IMG/VR virus record: IMGVR_UViG_3300017706_002637
Span: 1 to 59,626 of that record
DNA: 59,626 nt
DNA from: a virus
Strand: one strand, 5' to 3'
Part shown: positions 2,921 through 53,995 of the stretch, piece by piece
How positions within the stretch are numbered: position 1 is the first letter of the stretch
How the letters are laid out: every line of letters begins with the position of its first letter
The notes under the pieces: generated by a model
What the model saw: the letters and a program-made list of their open reading frames with translations, nothing else
Database searches by the model: none
What the model was told of the DNA's origin: nothing
Program-made: the position numbers and the translations under genes

Positions 2921-5900
2921 TTATTTTTCCCACATTTTTGACAATGAAGATACATCTAAATTTCTTTCGGCTCTAGAGGCAACCTTTTCTATTTGAGACT
3001 CGTCATTTCCGAAGTTCAATCCTCCAAGATCGTTTGCAACCTTTATAGTCGAAACAGCCTTCGTATTTGCGACAGTTCTCTTGAATGCCTCAAATGCTCT
3101 GCTGTCAAAATTCATCATGTCATCAACTTGTCTATCGAGCGCAGCTTTTGAGTTTGAAATCAAACCTTTTTTCTGCATCTCAAGAGAGAGGTCGTACGCT
3201 CTTCTGAGCTTAATCTTGTAGTCGTCTTTGGTCTGCTCTTTTTGCTTATTTGCAAAAGAATCTTTTAGCCTGGTCTTAATATAGTCTTTTCTTTCCATCA
3301 GCTCATCTTCAATTTTTGCAGTTTTTTGAGTTTCTTCAGATGAAGACTTTTTAAATTCAGAAGAAAGATCAACTTTTTTCTTTGCAGACTTAAGAATTGC
3401 TTCTCTTTTTGCCTTTCTAAGCTCAAGAGCTTCCTTTATCAATGAGTCCACTCCACTTGCAGCCTCGGTGGTCATGTCGTGCGCCATTCCCATATCTTTT
3501 GACAATTCATCTTCAGCCATGTGATCGTGATCTTCAGCCATGTGCTTGTGGTCGTGATCTTTGGACATGTGATCGTGATCTTCAGCCATGTGCTTGTGGT
3601 CTTTGGCATAGCTAGACTTCTTTTGAATTTTAGCTTTAGCTTTTTTGTAAAAACCGAAGTTTTGAGAAGCCATAGATAAGATAGCTTTTGACTGCCCGAT
3701 GGTTTCAACTGAATCATCATAAGCGTCAGATGCGAGACTTACGAAAGATCTTTTTTGCGAAGAGGAAAGTTTTCCGATGTTCTCGTAAGTTTCGCTAACC
3801 ATAGCCATTTCGTCGGCAGTTTGGTCTAACTCAGCGAGAGCAACTTTAAGCTTTCCAAGGGTAGATGCAGCGAGAGCTTCCATTTCTTGAGCCTCACCCT
3901 GTGGTTCTTCTCCGACATTGACATTTACATCAACATCAGTCATTTTTTCATCTTCCATCTTTGCTTTCAGATCTTGAATCTCAGAGATCAAGTTCTCCAT
4001 TTCCAAAAGTTTATCATCAATAAGTTCACTTGGACTTTTGTCATCTTCTTCGGCCACAGGCTCTTCTACAGGCATGTCTTCGCCGGCTAAGTCTAAGGCG
4101 GGCTCTTCTGAAGGCATGTCTTCACCCATCTCTGGCATAGCTGGCATCTCTGGTGCAGCACCCATCTCTGGCATAGCTGGCATCTCTGGCATCTCTGGCA
4201 TAGCAGGGGCTTCTTGTGCTGACTTCAAAATAGACTTAACGTAATTAATTCCGCTTGATCTAACTTCTTTGCATACTTCTTGGCCATACTCTCTGCTGTT
4301 TAACCATCTCCAGTTTCTGTTAAGATCCGGTCCATAAATATCTCTTGCCTTAACAGATATAACTTTTTGGTCTCCGGCAAAAACTTGAAATACGGAGTTT
4401 TTTCTATCCACAGAACCATTCTGTCTTTTCTTGAGAAGAAGTCTGGTCCTCAAAGAAGGACCGGTATATCCAGCCTTTTTTGAAATAGGATTTCTTGACC
4501 CGGCTCTAGAAATCTTCTGCTTTCTTTCCAAGTCACCAGGAAACAAACCTTCTGCAGATCCCATAGACCCAGTTTGGTGCATATGCTTATCTTGAGTATT
4601 TCTTACGTTATTAGCAGAGCTACCCTCGTCCTTATATCCGGCAGGCTCTCTATGCGCCTTGTTATCAACAGAGTCTCCACCTTGCATGTAAGCATTCCTT
4701 CTGAGACTTCTCTCTTTTAGGTCAGCTCTTGACATTTTCTGCTTAGACTCTAAATCACCAGGAAACAAACCTTCTGCAGATCCCATAGATCCAGTTTGTT
4801 GCATTTGCTTATCCTGAGTGTTTCTTGTATTGTTTGCAGCAGCGCCCTCGTCTTTAAAGCCAGCAGGTTCTCTGTGTGCTTTGTTGTCGACGGAATCGCC
4901 ACCTTGTAAATAAGCAAGTTTTCTTTTTGCTTCTCTTCTTTTGCTAAATCTAGACATTTTAATATCCTCCAATGCTTCTTTTATACTTAATTTAATATTT
5001 GAATTTGCCAATTTTGTTTCAGTCTCTTGGGCTTCATAGTTTACAGTCTTGTTTGAGTCGGGAGTTTTCAAAGATTCAATAACCTCTCCTTCCTCAACAA
5101 AATCATTTGAGTTACCCATAGAGTAACCCCTTCCATAAAACTCATCATGAAATCCTTCGCTTTCTTGGCTAGGATCGTAAGAAGAAGTTTTAATCATTCC
5201 ATTATTGCCAAGAAAAGACTTAACAATTCTATCTCTTTTTTCAATAGAACATCCGTTATCACCACAGGCTGATTTCATTATAGAGTCAAGATGTTCGGCT
5301 TGTTTTCCCGAAAGAGATCCAAGCATATTATCTACATTTTCTATTCCCATTCTAGAAAAATCACTTTTGTACTTATTCAAAGAAGCGATACATTTAAGAA
5401 GGACGGCTCCAGGTTCTGCAGGCTGAACGACCAAAGAATACTCTATGGGTTTCAGTCCAACATTAATTTCGCCATATGCAGACCTATTGTTTACGTGAGT
5501 GCAATAATTATCTGGAGTTGTCGCAATGTTGCAACACTCAGAACAGACAGATCTCTCTACTGCGGTACCCATACTTCCAAATCTAACTATTCCGGTTTCA
5601 ACCTTTCTTGCTAGATCCGGATAGTTAATTCTATCGAGCGCACACAAACCAACTACTTGTTTAAACTTTTCATCATAATAAGTGTCTAAGATTATACCTC
5701 TAACTCCATCAACTGATGAAGACTCATGATCTCTGCAAAGAGGAAGCCCGATCCACTTAGATGACGCTTTTTTCAATTCAGACTCAGGAAATATATCAGA
5801 GTTATTATTCCTGTGAGGCTTGACATTTCCATGCCACTTCCAGTTTTCATCAAAATAACCCCAAGCTTTTTCGCCGCTCGAAGTTTTCTTTATCTCGCCA

Positions 5901-6100
5901 TCTTCATCCAGCAGTGCGGCCTCTGCAGATTTTAAAAATATTATAGAAAAATATAAGAAATCATCAGATTTTGGACTAACACTCTTTATTCCGTGAGCAA
6001 TCTTATCCATTCTTTTGAGTATCTTTGGGCTAGCCTTTACTTGCTTAAGCTCGCTTCCTTCTAATACTTTAAAGTTATTTGTGCTTTTTTTAATAATCAT
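2921..6100 (-). CDS. Head maturation protease fused to a long scaffold-like region
   Basis: 1059 aa. Residues about 45-235 match the phage prohead-protease style seen in large phages: GLPLCRDHESS with a candidate catalytic His125, then VRFGSMGTAV with a candidate Ser176. These are followed by a cysteine cluster (C186, C189, C190, C200, H202) that probably binds zinc. The remaining 800 residues are low-complexity and helical. They hold two 74-residue-period repeats (about 397-459 and 471-533), a Pro-Glu-Met repeat (631-665), an acidic region, a His/Asp repeat (HMAEDHDH, 832-864) and Lys-rich helices. Protease and scaffold are usually separate or nested genes, so this fusion is unusual. Proposed role: capsid assembly core and its maturation. 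It follows the 6200-8119 gene after 99 bp. Confidence 0.78.
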   Translation of the reverse strand: MIIKKSTNNFKVLEGSELKQVKASPKILKRMDKIAHGIKSVSPKSDDFLYFSIIFLKSAEAALLDEDGEIKKTSSGEKAWGYFDENWKWHGNVKPHRNNNSDIFPESELKKASSKWIGLPLCRDHESSSVDGVRGIILDTYYDEKFKQVVGLCALDRINYPDLARKVETGIVRFGSMGTAVERSVCSECCNIATTPDNYCTHVNNRSAYGEINVGLKPIEYSLVVQPAEPGAVLLKCIASLNKYKSDFSRMGIENVDNMLGSLSGKQAEHLDSIMKSACGDNGCSIEKRDRIVKSFLGNNGMIKTSSYDPSQESEGFHDEFYGRGYSMGNSNDFVEEGEVIESLKTPDSNKTVNYEAQETETKLANSNIKLSIKEALEDIKMSRFSKRREAKRKLAYLQGGDSVDNKAHREPAGFKDEGAAANNTRNTQDKQMQQTGSMGSAEGLFPGDLESKQKMSRADLKERSLRRNAYMQGGDSVDNKAHREPAGYKDEGSSANNVRNTQDKHMHQTGSMGSAEGLFPGDLERKQKISRAGSRNPISKKAGYTGPSLRTRLLLKKRQNGSVDRKNSVFQVFAGDQKVISVKARDIYGPDLNRNWRWLNSREYGQEVCKEVRSSGINYVKSILKSAQEAPAMPEMPEMPAMPEMGAAPEMPAMPEMGEDMPSEEPALDLAGEDMPVEEPVAEEDDKSPSELIDDKLLEMENLISEIQDLKAKMEDEKMTDVDVNVNVGEEPQGEAQEMEALAASTLGKLKVALAELDQTADEMAMVSETYENIGKLSSSQKRSFVSLASDAYDDSVETIGQSKAILSMASQNFGFYKKAKAKIQKKSSYAKDHKHMAEDHDHMSKDHDHKHMAEDHDHMAEDELSKDMGMAHDMTTEAASGVDSLIKEALELRKAKREAILKSAKKKVDLSSEFKKSSSEETQKTAKIEDELMERKDYIKTRLKDSFANKQKEQTKDDYKIKLRRAYDLSLEMQKKGLISNSKAALDRQVDDMMNFDSRAFEAFKRTVANTKAVSTIKVANDLGGLNFGNDESQIEKVASRAERNLDVSSLSKMWEK
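3509..3607 (-). repeat. His/Asp-rich short tandem repeat
   Basis: In-frame tandem units encoding variants of HMAEDHDH and HMSKDHDH (residues 832-864 of the protease-scaffold protein). The DNA copies differ by few bases, suggesting recent unit duplication. The composition suggests metal binding, which is inference. Confidence 0.8.
4106..4210 (-). repeat. Pro-Glu-Met short tandem repeat
   Basis: Repeated codons for PEMPAMPEM-type units (residues 631-665 of the protease-scaffold protein). It is likely a flexible linker between the repeat region and the acidic scaffold region. Confidence 0.8.
4502..4912 (-). repeat. Two-copy tandem repeat, 222-bp period
   Basis: Encodes two nearly identical blocks (residues about 397-459 and 471-533). 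Both contain QGGDSVDNKAHREPAG, then KDEG, NTQDK, QTGSMGSAEGLFPGDL and KQK..SRA. Synonymous differences between the copies indicate that the protein sequence is being kept. Confidence 0.9.
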
Positions 6101-24139: not shown

Positions 24140-25789
24140 TTAGTATTTGTGATTCAGAGCTCTATCCTCTGGAGGCCTCCAACCTGCTGGCGGCTGCCAT
24201 CCAGTTGGCTTTTCTGGATCTTCAGACACAATTGCATCTGTGTTAATTAAAAGAAGTGAAATTGAAGATGCGTTTGATATAGCAGTTTTTGTAACCTTAG
24301 CAGGATCAATAACTCCCATTTCTACCATGTCTCCAAAGACTTCCTCTGCTACATTATAACCATAAGTCAGAGATTTAGACTCTTTTATTTTTGAGATAAT
24401 TTCATCTGGATCAAATCCTGAGTTTATAATAATCTGTCTAATTGGTCTTTCGCACGCGTGAGCAAACGCACACACGCCAGCCCTATACTTTTCATCGACA
24501 GAGTCTAAGTCTATCATTTCTGCAGCCCTAAGCAGTGCAACTCCCCCGCCAGGCAAGAAGCCCTGCTCTAAGGCCGCTTTGGTTGCGCTTATTGCGTCAT
24601 CAACCCTGTCGCTCTTTTCTCTCAACTCAAGCTCTGTTGAGTACCCCACAGTTATTACGGAGGCCTTTGAGTTTAAAAATCTAATTTTTTCCTCTACGTT
24701 TTTTCTAGCAGATTCGCTCAAAAGCTTTTTAAGGTCATGATTATAAATAAGCATCTTGGACTCTCTAGCCTGAACCTCAAACTTCGGCTCAACTAACTTT
24801 GTGCTATATTTATCTACATAAACCTTTTTGGCAAAACCAAGACAGCTAAGGTCTGCTGATGACATGGAAACTCCCTTTTCCTCATCAATTATTTTCGCAC
24901 CAGTCATTATTGATAAATTTTCAAGCTCGTCATCTCCCCTAAATATGCTTGGAATCTCTACGCAGGCAACTTTTATTTTCCCAATTCTATTGTTTTCGTA
25001 CAAAGAAACCAAGGCTTCTGACTGAATAGATTTGGCAATAATTAAGACAGGAATGTTGCTCTCATGAATTTTTGTAAATAAATTTACGCAATCATCAAAA
25101 TGAGTCATATCTCTTCCGACCAAAAGAATTCTGCAGCTGTCGAAGGAAATAGAGGTTTGTCCGCTCTTTGTGAAAAATTTAGAAACCAGACCTTTATTTG
25201 AGTTAGGAAATTCTATACCTTGTGACTTAGTAACATAGTTTTCTACCCCAGGTTTCGCTTCAGCTACAACAGTTCCGCTTAATCCAGAGTATGAAAAAGC
25301 TTCCGATATTACAGAGCCCAGCTCTGAGTCATTATTTGCAGAAATAGATGCTATGTCTAGAAGTTCCTGATCTGTAGTTACATCTCTTGTCATTGAGTCT
25401 AGATTTGAGTTAATAAGCTCAATACCTATATCAACCGCTTTTCTGTAATTCAAAGGACTGTAGCCATTTGAAATAAGATCTTTTCCTCTCAGTAGAAGCT
25501 CTTCTGTTAGAACTGTGGCGGTAGTTGTTCCATCTCCGACAATATCGACAGTTCTTCCCGCACTTTCTTTTATTAATTGAGCAACTAAGTTTTCTATTGG
25601 ATCAGACAGAACAACTTCTCTTGCGACAGAGACGCCATCCTTAGTTATAACTGGAGCTCCAATAAACTTTCCTAGAATTACATTTTTTCCTCTAGGACCC
25701 ATAGTAACTGAGACGGTTTTTGCAATTTTTCTAGCACCACTTAAAATTTTATCTTTAGCTTCATCATCGTATACGATTATTTTTCCCAT
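24140..25789 (-). CDS. groEL: GroEL-type chaperonin
   Basis: 549 aa, full length for HSP60. ATP-site motifs are present: VTMGPRGKNV, TKDGVSVARE, VGDGTTTATVL (catalytic Asp in DGTTT) and VDDAISATKAALEQGFLPGGG (Asp that triggers hydrolysis). The apical segment GLVSKFF corresponds to the substrate and GroES-binding groove. The C-terminus lacks the Gly-Gly-Met tail of bacterial GroEL and instead ends in a Pro/Trp-rich stretch (TGWQPPAGWRPPEDR). No co-chaperonin gene is visible. Phage chaperonins are known from phages such as EL, where one acts without GroES. It sits in a recA-ruvC-like unit. Confidence 0.95.
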   Translation of the reverse strand: MGKIIVYDDEAKDKILSGARKIAKTVSVTMGPRGKNVILGKFIGAPVITKDGVSVAREVVLSDPIENLVAQLIKESAGRTVDIVGDGTTTATVLTEELLLRGKDLISNGYSPLNYRKAVDIGIELINSNLDSMTRDVTTDQELLDIASISANNDSELGSVISEAFSYSGLSGTVVAEAKPGVENYVTKSQGIEFPNSNKGLVSKFFTKSGQTSISFDSCRILLVGRDMTHFDDCVNLFTKIHESNIPVLIIAKSIQSEALVSLYENNRIGKIKVACVEIPSIFRGDDELENLSIMTGAKIIDEEKGVSMSSADLSCLGFAKKVYVDKYSTKLVEPKFEVQARESKMLIYNHDLKKLLSESARKNVEEKIRFLNSKASVITVGYSTELELREKSDRVDDAISATKAALEQGFLPGGGVALLRAAEMIDLDSVDEKYRAGVCAFAHACERPIRQIIINSGFDPDEIISKIKESKSLTYGYNVAEEVFGDMVEMGVIDPAKVTKTAISNASSISLLLINTDAIVSEDPEKPTGWQPPAGWRPPEDRALNHKY

Positions 25790-47478: not shown

Positions 47479-47704
47479 TTACTAAGACCCTTTTGTTATT
47501 TTTTGCACCACAGGCTCTAACAAGATTTCTTATCGACTCTGCAATTTTTCCACCCTTTCCAATGACCTTTCCTACGTCGCCCTCCGAAACTTTTATCTCC
47601 ACAAAGACACCTTTTTCGCTCTCAGATTCCTCTACGAGAATACCCTCTTTGTCAGACACCAATCCTTCGACTATAGTTCTTGCATATTTTCCAATATCAC
47701 TCAT
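47456..47704 (-). CDS. KhpA-like KH-domain RNA-binding protein
   Basis: 82 aa with the single KH domain of the KhpA (YlqC) family: YARTIVEGLVSDKEGILVEE, then VFVEIKVSEGDVGKVIGKGG, AESIRNLVRACGAKNNKRV. The GKGG loop is the RNA-binding GxxG. An AGAGG site precedes the start. Bacterial KhpA works with KhpB in binding many RNAs; no KhpB partner is visible here. I infer that it acts on phage or host mRNA. It overlaps hsp20 by 8 bp. Confidence 0.88.
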   Translation of the reverse strand: MSDIGKYARTIVEGLVSDKEGILVEESESEKGVFVEIKVSEGDVGKVIGKGGKIAESIRNLVRACGAKNNKRVLVNVFNKPR

Positions 47705-48161
47705 TTATCACCTCTATTTTTTTAGCCTCATTATCTTCTGAATAAAAAGGAATTCTTATCGTAAGAAGGCCATCCTTCATTTTGGCCTCCGCTTTACTTC
47801 CATTTAGGGAATCATATAAAAAATAGCCTTTATTGAAAGCTCTTTTTGCGATTCCTCTGTGTATAAACCCAGGTTCTTTCTCCGTCATACTAACAATTTT
47901 TTCTGTAGAAACCCAAAGAGTGTTGCCTTTGATTGCAACGCTTATATCTTCAGGGCTAAATCCCGCTAATGCAAACGCTAAGTTAAAGAATTCTTCGTCG
48001 CACCACTGATCTGTTTTTGGGTATCTTCCTGAATTAATTTTCTTATAGGAAGATACGTGCGAAAAGAATTCGTCATCAACAAACAGTGACTCTACAACTT
48101 TGGAATCCAAACACATCTTATTTCTTTTATCCAATTTACTCTCCAATATTTTCTTCATCAT
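47697..48161 (-). CDS. Small heat-shock protein (Hsp20 family)
   Basis: 154 aa. The alpha-crystallin domain is clear: FFNLAFALAGFSPEDISVAI, GNTLWVSTEKIV, FIHRGIAKRAFNKGYFLYD, AEAKMKDGLLTIRIPF. It prevents aggregation of unfolded proteins. Hsp20 genes occur in many aquatic phages. The start is uncertain: ATG 48161 lacks a good ribosome binding site, and a TTG at 48134 with GGAGAG just upstream is an alternative. It overlaps the membrane-protein gene upstream. Confidence 0.9.
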   Translation of the reverse strand: MMKKILESKLDKRNKMCLDSKVVESLFVDDEFFSHVSSYKKINSGRYPKTDQWCDEEFFNLAFALAGFSPEDISVAIKGNTLWVSTEKIVSMTEKEPGFIHRGIAKRAFNKGYFLYDSLNGSKAEAKMKDGLLTIRIPFYSEDNEAKKIEVINE

Positions 48162-48488: not shown

Positions 48489-49466
48489 TTATGTTTTATC
48501 TTTTAATACCTCTTTCATTAGTTGAGCCACAGCTATGTGCTCAATTTGTGCGTGTGAGGAATTCCTAAGCATGAGAAAGTTATCTAAATCGTCCAGATAC
48601 ATAGAGATATATAATTCCGTAAGTCTTCCCTCTGGAAGAATGAATCTTACATACTCTCTCATTCTTTTATATTCATCATTGGTTATAAAGCCATTAGTCT
48701 TGCATCCTTTTAACTCTTTCATCATACTGAGATAATGAGTTTTGCTTTCATCCATAATGTCTATCATTTTTTCAGTAAGAGAGGTCATATCGTTCTCTCC
48801 ATTAGAATTCGATGATTTTAATATTTCCGATATGTCTTCTGGAATTCCAACAAGTTCTTGTCTGATTGTTTTGTATCTTCCAGAAACCATATTAAAAGAA
48901 GCAGTTCTATGTCTTAAAATCTGAACTGCTATAGAAAGAGGACACTTTACCCTCCAAGTAGCCCTACTCTCTGATCTTGACAACCCTTCGTGAAAAGACA
49001 CCAACTCCACGTCAACCTCGTGAGGAAACGACTTTGTCTCATCTTCTGTAAAACTTTCCTTCTTTGAAAAGTCAAGCATTTTGACTATCTGAGATAATCT
49101 TGGTTCATCTTTTTCAAATATTTTCCATAAATCATTTTCAAATGAGTTAAAGCAAGAATGCTTTGAGAAGTTTAGCAAGTCTATAGTTACCGAAACTCCG
49201 TCTTTAAAATTAGAAGCTTTTGAGTATTTATTATTCAGAAGACTTAGAATATCTAAGTTTGCATCCTTAATGTAATCGAGTTTACTCTGAACGAACGAAA
49301 GCGTAACTGACTCAAATGGAGATGTATGAAGGTGTTCCGCTAAAAAGCAAACAACTCTATCTACATCTTCATCTGTCCTAGTTTTAGCTCTAGACTCGCT
49401 AATGGTTGAGATCCAAGCAGAGTTTGCTATAGATCTCATATCACCAGTCTTAGTCATTACTATCAT
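48489..49466 (-). CDS. thyX: Flavin-dependent thymidylate synthase
   Basis: 325 aa. The ThyX signature RHRTASFNMVS (RHR at 185-187, Ser195) is followed by GRY, with LPEGRLTELYISMYLDDLDN and SSHAQIEHIAVAQLM nearer the C-terminus. HTSPFESVTLSF (47-58) is the early substrate-binding strand. Between these lie about 110 extra residues compared with the typical 220-250 aa enzyme, and the usual Asn-Glu after RHR is Asn-Met. It makes dTMP from dUMP using FAD and folate, supplying thymine for this A+T-rich genome. It overlaps the M16 gene by 17 bp. Confidence 0.92.
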   Translation of the reverse strand: MIVMTKTGDMRSIANSAWISTISESRAKTRTDEDVDRVVCFLAEHLHTSPFESVTLSFVQSKLDYIKDANLDILSLLNNKYSKASNFKDGVSVTIDLLNFSKHSCFNSFENDLWKIFEKDEPRLSQIVKMLDFSKKESFTEDETKSFPHEVDVELVSFHEGLSRSESRATWRVKCPLSIAVQILRHRTASFNMVSGRYKTIRQELVGIPEDISEILKSSNSNGENDMTSLTEKMIDIMDESKTHYLSMMKELKGCKTNGFITNDEYKRMREYVRFILPEGRLTELYISMYLDDLDNFLMLRNSSHAQIEHIAVAQLMKEVLKDKT

Positions 49467-50661
49467 CTTTTTCTCCTCTGCAAATAAGAGTTACTACATG
49501 CTCTTTGTCATAAATTCTTTTTGCATACTCCAATATATCTTCAGATGTTACTTCGCTTAGCATCTTAATATACTCTTCAGCAGTACAGGATTTATTTATT
49601 GCCCTAGAAATCTCATAGGAGCAAAGACTGTTACTGCACTCAATAAACCCATAGAAGCTTGACTTAATTTGGTTTTTAATTCTAATTAAGTCATGATCTG
49701 TAACTAGCTCCGTAGTAAGTCTTTCTATTTCAGACTCAATCGTATTTACCGCCTCCTCTAGTCCAGCCTCCCTTGTAGAGAAACTGATCGTTTGAATTGA
49801 CCCATCTCCATCAAACTCTGAGCATCCAGATGAAATAGAGTAAACCAGTCCTCTCTTTTCTCTAACTTCTTTGAATAGCCTAGAGTTCATTCCACCTCCA
49901 AAGTAAGAATTCATCATAGAGGAAATGGCTCTATCTTTTTTATTTTCAATCTTAGCAGGCACACACACTTTTGCGTATACGTGTTCAATTCCAGGCTTCT
50001 CAATCTCTACATTGCAAGACTCTGGATAACTTGTTTGCTTAAACTTAGGCCTTTTAATCCTACCGTTTGGATTTCCAAAGTTATTCCTCATAATTTGAAC
50101 CGCATCTTTCTTTTTCATATCTCCAGAAATAACAACAATTGCCTGATCAATAGAGCAAAATTGCTTATAGTATCTTAGAACCTCTTCTCTTGTAAACGCA
50201 GATATCGTTTCTTCTGTTCCAATTATTGGATATTGCAAATGATTGTCAAACAAAACTTCCGATAAGGACTCCCAGATGTAACTTCCAACTGAATCTGATG
50301 AGCTTACCATTTCTTCCATGACAACGTTTCTCTCTTTCTGAAACTCTTCTTCTGAAAGATCCATATTTGCAATCATATCATGCAAAATCTCAGTAGCCTG
50401 ATCTACATTCTCTACTGGAACATCTATCATATAAGCGACCTTTCCGTATGATGTAAATGCGTTCGCACTACCTCCAATAAATGATATATCGTCCAATAGT
50501 TTTTCCCAATTTCTATTTGTAGTTCCTTTGAAAAAACAATGCTCTAGCATATGAGATATGCCTAGATTGTACTTGTGCTTGACCTCTATTCTTGATCCTG
50601 CATTAAATCCAACCATAATGGTCGCAATTCTGCTTTTACTTTTAACAAATCTTTGTATCAT
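49450..50661 (-). CDS. M16 family zinc peptidase
   Basis: 403 aa from ATG 50661 with GGAGAAG upstream; an earlier ATG at 50697 lies inside the preceding terminator and is rejected. It carries the inverted zinc motif HMLEH (H37, E40, H41) and a distal glutamate in KERNVVMEEMV (about 110-119), plus the Arg/Tyr pair in SRLFKEVREKRGLVYS. These are complete active-site features of processing-peptidase and PqqL-type enzymes. The two-lobed length fits one chain. The substrate is unknown. A phage-encoded M16 peptidase is unusual. Confidence 0.92.
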   Translation of the reverse strand: MIQRFVKSKSRIATIMVGFNAGSRIEVKHKYNLGISHMLEHCFFKGTTNRNWEKLLDDISFIGGSANAFTSYGKVAYMIDVPVENVDQATEILHDMIANMDLSEEEFQKERNVVMEEMVSSSDSVGSYIWESLSEVLFDNHLQYPIIGTEETISAFTREEVLRYYKQFCSIDQAIVVISGDMKKKDAVQIMRNNFGNPNGRIKRPKFKQTSYPESCNVEIEKPGIEHVYAKVCVPAKIENKKDRAISSMMNSYFGGGMNSRLFKEVREKRGLVYSISSGCSEFDGDGSIQTISFSTREAGLEEAVNTIESEIERLTTELVTDHDLIRIKNQIKSSFYGFIECSNSLCSYEISRAINKSCTAEEYIKMLSEVTSEDILEYAKRIYDKEHVVTLICRGEKDDSND

Positions 50662-50674
50662 ATTTTTCTTCTCC

Positions 50675-50707
50675 AAAAAAAAAGGAGATTGGAACATCCC
50701 AATCTCC
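50675..50707 (-). terminator. Rho-independent terminator
   Basis: 9-bp stem (GGAGATTGG, 50684-50692, with 50699-50707) and 6-nt loop, then a T-run on the minus strand at 50675-50683. It ends the VWA gene unit; the M16 gene starts only 14 nt later and shares no coding use of this hairpin. Confidence 0.9.
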
Positions 50708-50736
50708 TATAATATACCCAGCGATATGAACGAAGT

Positions 50737-51858
50737 CTAATCCGTTATTACAACTTTTCTTCCGTATGGAAACTCTACCTCTCCACCATTGTTTTCGCAT
50801 ACTGCCCAAAGCACTCTTGTCTTTGGTTTAGGAGGAAATGGTGCATACCCATCTGTGAATATAACCAATCCATCGTAACTTAATTCGTCTGCTAAGTTAA
50901 TAATTGGATGAAAATCAGTTCCACCTCTGCCTATTATATCAATCTCTTTTGCTTTTTTGCTAAAAGTCTCAGGCTCTCCTCTAATACAGGTATCAAACTG
51001 AATGAAGTCACACTGAACATGATCTATCATCCCATTTAACTCTGTTACAAAACTAGACAACTCTTTGTTTGATACAGATCCAGACGTGTCAAAGGCTACG
51101 AGCAACTTTGAAGTGTAGTTTCTTTTGGAGCCAGGATTGGCATAACCATACCTTCTGTTTGGTCTCATTCTAGTTGATCTTCTGCCCATCATAACTAGTT
51201 GATTTATAAAGTATTTAACTTGTTTTTTCCAATTAACCTTTGGCTTATTTGCTGCAATAACTTGACTTGCAATGTTGCCTTTTATATGCCCCCAACCTTT
51301 CTTCTCTTGCTCCTTAATAGCCTTCTCTGCAATACCCCTAACCTTTTCTTCGATAATGTCTTTGTCAAAATCATCCCAAAGACTATGGTCATCTAACGTT
51401 TCCCCCTCTATGTCTCCAAAGCCACCATTACCGTCGCCATACTTATCTTTGAGTTTTGCGTAATAATACTCTGAAGATTTATCTCTCTCAAATCCAAACT
51501 GCTCTGGGTACAAAGCACCATTTGGTAAGCCCTCAATATGGCAATTGATAGCCATATCTGCGGCTATATTATAACCTTTTGGATTAAAATTAAAATGCTT
51601 AATCCTAGTCAAATGATGCAGTAAGAAATGAAGTGACTCATGAATTAGTACTGCAATTAACTCAGAAGAGGATAACTTCTCTACAAAGTCTGAGTTATAA
51701 TAAAGAGCCATATCAACCTTTCTTGTAACCCCAACTGCCAGTGTTGGTATCGACTTAGATTCTTTCTTGTTTAATGATAGAAAAACTACTCCATAAAGAG
51801 GCTGAAAAAGGATTAGTTTTGAGATAGCACTCTCTATTCTTGCTTTTGCTTTTGACAT
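50737..51858 (-). CDS. VWA domain protein with HExxH metallopeptidase-like motif (DUF2201-like)
   Basis: 373 aa. The N-terminal half has LIAVLIHESLHFLLHH with an HESLH zinc motif (residues 73-77). The C-terminal half is a von Willebrand A domain with a complete MIDAS: AFDTSGSVS (257-261), RGGTDFHP (T314, D315) and LVIFTDGYAP. This combination is that of the DUF2201 group, usually paired with a MoxR-type ATPase, as here upstream. The pair may fold, load or dismantle a target complex. The gene stands alone between two terminators. Confidence 0.9.
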   Translation of the reverse strand: MSKAKARIESAISKLILFQPLYGVVFLSLNKKESKSIPTLAVGVTRKVDMALYYNSDFVEKLSSSELIAVLIHESLHFLLHHLTRIKHFNFNPKGYNIAADMAINCHIEGLPNGALYPEQFGFERDKSSEYYYAKLKDKYGDGNGGFGDIEGETLDDHSLWDDFDKDIIEEKVRGIAEKAIKEQEKKGWGHIKGNIASQVIAANKPKVNWKKQVKYFINQLVMMGRRSTRMRPNRRYGYANPGSKRNYTSKLLVAFDTSGSVSNKELSSFVTELNGMIDHVQCDFIQFDTCIRGEPETFSKKAKEIDIIGRGGTDFHPIINLADELSYDGLVIFTDGYAPFPPKPKTRVLWAVCENNGGEVEFPYGRKVVITD

Positions 51859-51896
51859 AAATAAATCTCCGTTTTAATACTAAATATAATAAATAT

Positions 51897-51931
51897 AAAA
51901 AAAATGAGTAGCCACAAAGGTGTGGCTACTC
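51897..51931 (-). terminator. Rho-independent terminator
   Basis: 11-bp stem (GAGTAGCCACA, 51906-51916, with TGTGGCTACTC, 51921-51931), AAGG loop, and T-run on the minus strand at 51897-51904. It ends the MoxR gene and separates it from the VWA gene. Confidence 0.92.
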
Positions 51932-51948
51932 AAACAGACTTTCAGTTA

Positions 51949-53013
51949 TTATGAGAGAAAAACCTCATTAACCTTTTTGTTGACATCTTCATCATCTTGC
52001 CACTCAAGACTTAACTTTTTAGTTTTCTTGCCACTAAGCAATCCAACCCAAGTATCTGATGTTACATCATTTGGCAACATAAGAAAGAATTTCTTTAAGT
52101 TTTCTTTTTGCTTATCTTTGAAAGTTTTTGCATTTCTTTCATTTGCCTCTCTTACAACTTGCTTTGCAAGTGTTGCGATAACCTCAATATCATCACAGGC
52201 TTTCTCTATATCTTTCTTATTCTTTGGAAAATTGTCCAATACATCTTCTGCTCTGAGTAAGGAAAACTCATTTTGGCAAAACTTCTGAAACATAATAGCA
52301 ATCTCTCTACCGACCCAACCTTTGCAGACTTGGGTTAGCATATTATTTACATCATTGTCAATTAAATCCATCTTCTTTGCAAAATCTGAAAAGGCTACCC
52401 AACTTCTTCTCGAAGGATAAACTCTGCCTGCTTCTAAAGAGCCTACTGGCGGATCTAAAAGATTTTGATTTCTTGAAATAAACTGAGCAATTGCAGGATG
52501 AAGATCACTTTTTTCTGCCCATTCCAACCACTCATTTACCGTTGGGTCAAACTGAATGTGAAACCATCTGTCTGCAAGAGCAGGATCAAACTCAATTACA
52601 TCATATTCATCATCTGAGTTTACAGCAGAAACAATCTGCCAACCATCTGGGATTTTCTGCCCATCTAATCTTCTATCTAGGCACAACTCAAATACAGATT
52701 GAAGAACATCTTTTGTCGCTCTATTCAATTCATCTAAGAAAAGAATACCTTTTGAGTCTTGATCAGTAGGAAACCACTCTGGCTTCGCAAATCTTACAAC
52801 TGTTGTTCCATTTTCAAGCGTATGATTGTATGGCAGACCTTTGATATCTCCAACTTCACACTGAGATAATCTTAAGTCATAAAAACCAATTCCTTGCTCT
52901 TCTGCAACTTGCTTTACTACACTACTCTTACCAACACCATGCTTTGCATGAAGCATTACAGATTTATCTTTGGGTGCATTAGTAAGAATAAGTTTTGTCT
53001 GTTTGATGTCCAT
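51949..53013 (-). CDS. MoxR-type AAA+ ATPase
   Basis: 354 aa. It carries Walker A HGVGKSS (residues 25-31), a loop LRLSQCEVGDIKGLPY typical of MoxR/CbbQ proteins, Walker B GILFLDELNRA (89-99), sensor 1 VSAVNSDD, and DPALADRWFHIQFD with the arginine finger. The C-terminal helical lid ends KVNEVFLS. The family works with VWA-domain partners to remodel or activate enzymes; the VWA gene follows after a terminator. The gene is preceded by the best sigma70-type promoter in the window. Confidence 0.92.
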   Translation of the reverse strand: MDIKQTKLILTNAPKDKSVMLHAKHGVGKSSVVKQVAEEQGIGFYDLRLSQCEVGDIKGLPYNHTLENGTTVVRFAKPEWFPTDQDSKGILFLDELNRATKDVLQSVFELCLDRRLDGQKIPDGWQIVSAVNSDDEYDVIEFDPALADRWFHIQFDPTVNEWLEWAEKSDLHPAIAQFISRNQNLLDPPVGSLEAGRVYPSRRSWVAFSDFAKKMDLIDNDVNNMLTQVCKGWVGREIAIMFQKFCQNEFSLLRAEDVLDNFPKNKKDIEKACDDIEVIATLAKQVVREANERNAKTFKDKQKENLKKFFLMLPNDVTSDTWVGLLSGKKTKKLSLEWQDDEDVNKKVNEVFLS

Positions 53014-53162: not shown

Positions 53163-53450
53163 TTATTTCTTTGGTTTATAAACTTCTAGCATGCTAGTTA
53201 TATTTTTCAAGATGTCTTTCTTGCCCGCTATATCTCCTATTCCTCCCAACTCTTCTGTCTTTAGAAGCTCTGAAAGATTTCCTAAGGAGCCGTCTATCAT
53301 ATCCGATAGAGATGACGTTGTATCTCCCATACTTTCCTCTATACTACACACCTTTTCCTTTATTGTCTGAATTTCTTTTACCAATAAAGAAAGTACCGAG
53401 TCCATCTCTCTTAAATTTTGTTTCATTTCTTTTATGTCGAATTCGATCAT
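53163..53450 (-). CDS. Small coiled-coil protein, unknown
   Basis: 95 aa, ATG 53450 with AGGAG upstream. A heptad-rich helix covers residues 8-40 (KEMKQNLREMDSVLSLLVKE), then SSLSDMIDGSLGNLSELLK and a second helix. It overlaps the metallopeptidase gene by 4 bp. No family is recognised. It is the last gene before the promoter region at 53086. Confidence 0.65.
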   Translation of the reverse strand: MIEFDIKEMKQNLREMDSVLSLLVKEIQTIKEKVCSIEESMGDTTSSLSDMIDGSLGNLSELLKTEELGGIGDIAGKKDILKNITSMLEVYKPKK

Positions 53451-53995
53451 CTTACCATCTCCTCTATATTTAAAGCCTCATATTCGTTTTTTGGATTTGT
53501 AACAGCTTTACAGTTTTTAGCATACCACAAGTGAGCTATTTCATGAATGTACCTTTTTCCCAAACTAAGTTTGTCATAGTGCGAGTCCGATAAAATTATA
53601 ATATTTTCATAATTTTTATATGAATAAATTCCAAGATATCTTTGGGACTCTCTAGATAAAACTGGAAGGCCATAGTATCTGACCGTATCATAATCATTTA
53701 GATATGAGCTTTTAACATAATAGACCTTTACTTCATCGGACCTGCAAGAGTGTTCTTGGCCTGGCAGTCCGTGCTTTTCCCCATAAAGATTTGAATATAC
53801 TTCGAACCTCTCTAGCATTGAATCTGGACTGTAATTTGATAAATCTGAACCACTTTGATGATACACAGATAAGTTTACCTTTTTCCCGTTATCAAATACT
53901 ATAACTTTTTGAGCATCTAAGTTCATCTTATCTTCATAATCTGATCCGTGAGCATAGGAGTTTGTGGGCATCAATAAATACAATAAAGCAAACAT
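53447..53995 (-). CDS. Probably exported HExxH metallopeptidase
   Basis: 182 aa. A hydrophobic N-terminus (MFALLYLLMPTNSYA, with a possible signal-peptidase site after TNSYA) suggests export to the periplasm or beyond, though it lacks the usual positive start. Residues near 151 read KRYIHEIAHLWYAKN, the HExxH zinc motif, within a fold ending NEYEALNIEEMVR. Cys pairs could form a disulfide. Target unknown; cell envelope or host surface protein breakdown are possibilities. Its ATG overlaps the upstream stop as TAATG. Confidence 0.75.
   Translation of the reverse strand: MFALLYLLMPTNSYAHGSDYEDKMNLDAQKVIVFDNGKKVNLSVYHQSGSDLSNYSPDSMLERFEVYSNLYGEKHGLPGQEHSCRSDEVKVYYVKSSYLNDYDTVRYYGLPVLSRESQRYLGIYSYKNYENIIILSDSHYDKLSLGKRYIHEIAHLWYAKNCKAVTNPKNEYEALNIEEMVR

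Follow-up and report, generated by a model that had tools for sequence, protein, structure and literature searches.

The window analyzed here, a 59.6-kb stretch (59,626 nucleotides) that is itself an IMG/VR virus record (IMGVR_UViG_3300017706_002637), carries on its minus strand, in series, genes encoding a MoxR-type AAA+ ATPase, a DUF2201 protein with a von Willebrand factor A domain (hereafter VWA protein), an M16 peptidase and ThyX (Table 1). Terminase and portal genes were also found in the window by profile, and RecA-like and DNA-polymerase-III-like genes were assigned by sequence inspection. Since relatives range up to 332–335 kb, the window is probably a fragment of a larger phage genome. 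An earlier note on this DNA had described MoxR, VWA protein (HESLH) and M16 (HMLEH) as a three-gene island within 3.6 kb. The open reading frames were found as described, with complete active-site motifs, but the extent proposed for the island was too narrow, because a gene upstream of MoxR encoding a putatively exported HExxH protein, absent from that note, belongs to it as well.

Table 1. Features of the MoxR–VWA–M16 locus and of other genes of the window discussed in the text.
Feature	Position	Strand	Basis or remark
Head-maturation protease domain	2921–6100		Window's own, separate from M16
GroEL	24140–25789		Profile match
HSP20	47697–48161		Encoded in window
ThyX	48489–49466	-	Pfam ThyX/Thy1, 3.5e-28; also PHROGs
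M16B zinc peptidase, 403 aa	49450–50661	-	Pfam; ORF as called reaches 50697 (415 aa)
Intrinsic-terminator-like hairpin, VWA–M16 gap	50683–50708	-	11 bp stem, T8 tail
DUF2201 protein, 373 aa: N-terminal putative zincin (HESLH) and C-terminal VWA with MIDAS	50737–51858	-	Pfam; phrog_1314
Intrinsic-terminator-like hairpin, MoxR–VWA gap	51905–51932	-	12 bp stem, T8 tail
MoxR-type AAA+ ATPase, 354 aa	51949–53013	-	Pfam AAA_5/AAA; phrog_1297
Small zincin-like protein, putatively exported (signal-like N-terminus, HEIAH, downstream E)	53447–53995	-	Conserved upstream of MoxR

Relatives of the locus were gathered by alignment-based scans of viral contigs, which recovered 35 IMG/VR contigs besides the window, several of them near-copies, so that about 28 distinct lineages are represented; a scan of viral contigs with the single M16 sequence gave no matches, and a genome-contig scan with the VWA protein returned only four loci, all distant. 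Residue conservation was scored over 36 sequences (the window plus the 35 relatives) with a threshold of 97%. MoxR matched phrog_1297 in PHROGs (E 2e-63) and contains a Walker A motif (GVGKSS), a Walker B motif (LFLDE), and a putative sensor 1 and arginine finger, both placed by sequence position; residues K29/S30, D94/E95, N132 and R149 are invariant in 36/36. The VWA protein matched Pfam families DUF2201_N (2e-19) and DUF2201 (1.5e-18), and both its HESLH motif (H73/E74/H77) and its MIDAS (DTSGS; D257/S259/S261/T314/D336) are equally invariant, and the HExxH recurs in almost every DUF2201 member from other phages and from bacteria. A moderately confident AF2 model of this protein (mean pLDDT 78.7) matched VWA folds with its VWA half only, and a PDB sequence search with MoxR and the VWA protein gave no informative match. 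PHROGs, like many phage annotations, gives the VWA-zincin family phrog_1314 the label 'HNH endonuclease', for which its domains offer no support.

The M16 protein, which carries the HMLEH motif, matched Pfam families Peptidase_M16 (7e-25) and M16_C (1e-31). Residues H49/E52/H53/E129, forming the HxxEH motif with its downstream Glu, are invariant in 36/36, and R273 and Y286 were identified at the C-terminal R/Y positions. The AF2 model, a confident one (pLDDT 91.6), adopts the two-domain M16 fold, with 3hdi as best PDB match (TM-score 0.83, E 2e-32; E 4e-80 in a profile search). As modeled, M16 is an M16B-fold peptidase, sharing fold, HxxEH...E site and C-terminal R/Y positions with the enzymes from Bacillus halodurans (3hdi) and Sphingomonas (3ami) and with MPP beta. 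A lone M16 gene was found in the window and in G001, which is compatible with a homodimer. The start of the gene is probably M13, at 50661, because the called ATG at 50697 falls within the second terminator hairpin and residues 1–12 have no counterpart in most relatives, conserved homology beginning at M13. A role as prohead protease was discarded, since the window encodes its own head-maturation protease domain and M16 is not needed for that task.

The earlier note had also proposed that terminators separate the genes. This held for the MoxR–VWA and VWA–M16 gaps, but no terminator lies between M16 and ThyX, whose reading frames share 17 bp. None of 40 dinucleotide-preserving shuffles produced a hairpin with a stem of 10 bp or more and a T-rich tail, and by this measure the two predicted intergenic hairpins are real; in the VWA–M16 gap, a hairpin region and T-run were present in 25 of the 35 relatives. 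A third terminator-like site (51517–51500), lying within the VWA gene, was at chance level and was dismissed. Terminators between the cassette genes argue against strict co-expression. ThyX had a strong match in just 8 of 28 relatives and is a neighbour rather than a stable member of the cassette. In a 332-kb relative (L002, 13697–15370), an HNH-endonuclease-like ORF apparently interrupts ThyX, which suggests an intron or a comparable insertion.

All 35 related contigs contain the three families together, in the order MoxR–VWA–M16 on one strand (36/36 with the window), and M16 was missing from none of the 36 contigs. The MoxR–VWA gap measures 25–122 bp across relatives and the VWA–M16 gap 9–146 bp in all but two, which carry inserts of 0.8 and 3.3 kb. 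Hence two outcomes anticipated in the earlier note as damaging, unlinked genes in related phages and degenerate MIDAS or zinc sites, did not occur within the lineage. Identity to the window proteins was 54–69% for MoxR, 49–72% for the VWA protein and 31–44% for M16, the most divergent of the three. The wider region (DHH, HEAT-like, HSP20, KhpA, HU) is collinear as well, so that linkage alone constitutes weak evidence of a functional connection. General collinearity as the full explanation is, however, weakened by five loci (L094, L096, L115, L117 and L125) in which the DUF1360–HSP20–KhpA–HU block is gone from the flank while M16 still lies behind the VWA gene, the downstream sequence of L094 spanning just ~4 kb. 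When six flanking genes were regressed out, partial distance correlations were 0.59 for M16–MoxR, 0.62 for M16–VWA and 0.80 for MoxR–VWA, with control genes ranging from -0.18 to 0.45, in a comparison of non-independent pairwise distances that carries no significance values. Evolutionary rates of M16 covary with those of MoxR and VWA above the genomic background, which is supportive and not decisive, as linked genes can covary via shared recombination history.

The gene upstream of MoxR was found in 33 of the 35 relatives, and its 38 copies, some of them in tandem (in L041, L043, L044 and L046), form one homologous set. Residues C84, H151, E152, H155, C162 and E171 of its product are invariant. 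The protein gave no convincing family match in Pfam or PHROGs, and its export is predicted from N-terminal hydrophobicity.

The origin of the cassette M16s was addressed with a 73-row tree, in which they form one clade (support 100/99) with an unusually long branch for the window protein (1.09). Closest to this clade are M16s of other phages (L017, L020, L021 and L024; 98/92), and the bacterial rows, from a single phylum, fall elsewhere; repeated independent capture of M16 was rejected, since the tree gives a single origin. A bacterial origin of the triad was likewise set aside, as 0 of ~30 bacterial DUF2201 loci, all from one phylum and many cut by contig ends, had M16 within ~1.5 kb. Among 15 other M16 contigs, many of them fragments, a VWA gene was found only in phage G and L024, and a 511-kb contig was also without it. 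In phage G, M16 lies next to terminase at 2 kb and VWA at 424 kb; in L024 the two genes are ~4 kb apart, and a MoxR profile had no match within the 21 kb stretch. Conversely, the flanks retrieved for ~45 further MoxR–VWA loci of phages or bacteria contained no M16. M16 and MoxR–VWA thus each occur without the other, which makes M16 a lineage-specific partner and not an obligate part. The earlier note's proposal is supported in so far as a three-gene cassette is conserved in this lineage of large environmental phages; in other giant phages M16 is unlinked to MoxR–VWA or occurs without it. The M16 genes of Microcystis phage MaAM05 were excluded because of the bacterial look of the genes around them (smc, scpAB, cardiolipin synthase, uvrA); the record bearing that name (L005; MW495066.1, 133188–150465) is possibly a bacterial contig. 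A subtilase gene immediately precedes M16 in one phage-G-like contig (L010, 9022–11176).

The MoxR–VWA gap of relatives holds a further feature. In 18 of the loci examined it contains a ~40-nt element, CCCACRGG…AGGCAC AGGG TTATCAG GTGYCT (for example L105:11079, L103:9703 and L096:11088), which by its sequence can form an H-type pseudoknot. The exact pattern occurs in at least 120 stretches of viral contigs, L198–L277 among them; of the matches listed, most lie 6–15 nt past the stop codon of the preceding gene, and in 62 of 99 that gene resembles, by sequence features, a T4 gp32-type ssDNA-binding protein. Compensatory changes affect the two outer pairs of the 7-bp stem, and the invariance of the inner stem bases is partly by construction, these having been fixed in the search pattern. 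No match was found in Rfam. The nearest analogue by context is the STAXI pseudoknot motif (PMC2864571), likewise found near ssDNA-binding protein genes. The window is devoid of the element, and the terminator hairpin occupies its place.

Adjacency of MoxR and VWA genes, observed in 36/36, is the norm elsewhere in phages and in bacteria. The suggestion that such pairs are mainly bacterial was not sustained, as phage records contain VWA in 290 and MoxR in 761 cases, and a pair from jumbo phages was published in 2021. In that work, group 2.2 jumbo phages are described with adjacent genes for a MoxR AAA+ protein and a vWA protein with an N-terminal metallopeptidase domain, the arrangement shared by the cassette, and virion assembly and peptidolysis are proposed as functions (Iyer et al. 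2021, PMC7824862). A term search of its main text returned no mention of M16 or insulinase, nor does the available text mention the putatively exported zincin. In the archaeal Acidianus two-tailed virus (ATV), MoxR p618 binds VWA p892, stimulation of its ATPase was measured, and a link to tail development was drawn (PMC4124505); the viral MoxR with a VWA partner is common to both systems, whereas the ATV VWA protein lacks a peptidase domain and no M16 is present. RavA–ViaA, like ATV p618/p892, is a MoxR–VWA pair acting as a remodelling chaperone, and a MoxR-like ATPase was reported in a jumbo phage virion proteome, although called unconfirmed by its authors (PMC10638138). Bacillus phage G resembles the window in having an M16 (gp2, a zinc-dependent peptidase) together with MoxR-/VWA-type genes (gp566, gp576), but gp2 is unlinked to VWA and belongs to a separate M16 lineage; the cassette M16s form their own clade, distinct from the bacterial M16 sequences sampled. 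Cyanophage S-TIM5 (L129, 4514–9328; JQ245707.2, 156476–161290) has a similar neighbourhood, Hsp20–MoxR–VWA–x–x–ThyX, without M16. Prokaryotic ternary conflict systems combine a MoxR–vWA core with a third component, in some cases accompanied by peptidases (Kaur et al. 2020, PMC7159879). As far as the accessible text of that paper goes, the third components are VMAP, iSTAND, FtsH or beta-propeller, the peptidases are mostly trypsin- or caspase-like, and M16B is not described; no match to VMAP, iSTAND, FtsH or beta-propeller was found among the genes scanned, which cover the neighbours in part. A search for phage M16 peptidases, in literature mostly outside subscription journals and preprints, yielded no relevant paper. 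The MoxR–VWA/metallopeptidase pair was already known in phages (PMC7824862), but no description seems to exist of its fixed coupling to M16, or to the fourth gene, whose peptidase-like product is predicted to be exported.

We tentatively regard the cassette, at somewhat less than an even chance, as a vertically inherited phage proteostasis and processing module in which MoxR–VWA and M16B act on virion proteins. MoxR would serve as an ATP-driven remodelling ring, partnered by the VWA protein, which would hold the substrate and may nick it with its N-terminal zincin; M16B, as an enclosed-chamber dimer like BhP and the mitochondrial processing peptidase, would then trim or clear the resulting extended segments or peptides. 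The likeliest targets would be phage proteins in tail or head maturation, because earlier work links viral MoxR–VWA pairs to virions and to the assembly of tails. The analysis shows the order of the genes, the intactness of their sites, the conservation of the linkage, the covariation of rates and the M16B fold. That M16 joins MoxR–VWA in one machine is inferred, and so are contact between the proteins, the sequence of processing steps and the nature of the substrate. Nearly as likely, the genes are neighbours only: the MoxR–VWA pair would be self-contained, and M16, an independent enzyme for recycling peptides into amino acids or clearing host peptides, would have been fixed alongside it once in an ancestor and kept by vertical descent. 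The solitary or unlinked M16 genes of phage G and other giant phages, the MoxR–VWA loci elsewhere without M16, the broad collinearity of the region and the terminators between genes all agree with this, whereas the persistence of M16 where the downstream block was lost, its rate covariation with MoxR and VWA, and the lack of any M16 loss among the 36 contigs fit better with a joint function.

Disassembly and degradation of a host or defence complex, instead of virion maturation, seems distinctly unlikely as the task of the module. Peptidases do partner MoxR–vWA in conflict systems, according to PMC7159879, and in another phage (L017) a Gabija anti-defence gene is found close to M16; yet PADLOC gave no match for the three cassette proteins, so that a defence or anti-defence assignment was dropped, and retention in every relative departs from the patchy pattern expected of host-directed proteases, an argument made in PMC7824862. 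Very improbable is a dosage-graded stress chaperone set, in which GroEL, HSP20 and MoxR would fold phage proteins and the zinc sites of the VWA protein and M16 would be structural or peptide-binding: GroEL and HSP20 are encoded in the window and S-TIM5 groups Hsp20, MoxR and VWA, but the catalytic HxxEH+E of M16 and HExxH of the VWA protein are kept without exception in the lineage. The virion-processing module could be extended to include the exported zincin: MoxR unfoldase, VWA-zincin, M16B chamber peptidase and exported zincin would then each take one step in a single process of virion maturation or envelope crossing, and the conserved terminators or, in relatives, the new RNA element would grade their expression; we consider this four-part pathway rather unlikely.

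Combined, these results extend a known phage MoxR–VWA pair by an M16B peptidase kept in every relative examined, and make that peptidase a concrete, testable candidate partner of a chaperone family whose function in phages is unproven. If the three proteins act together, they would constitute a viral system for remodelling and digestion whose parts are not known to occur in combination. Work on cultured phages would also gain a defined target, the identity of the substrate among virion or host proteins.
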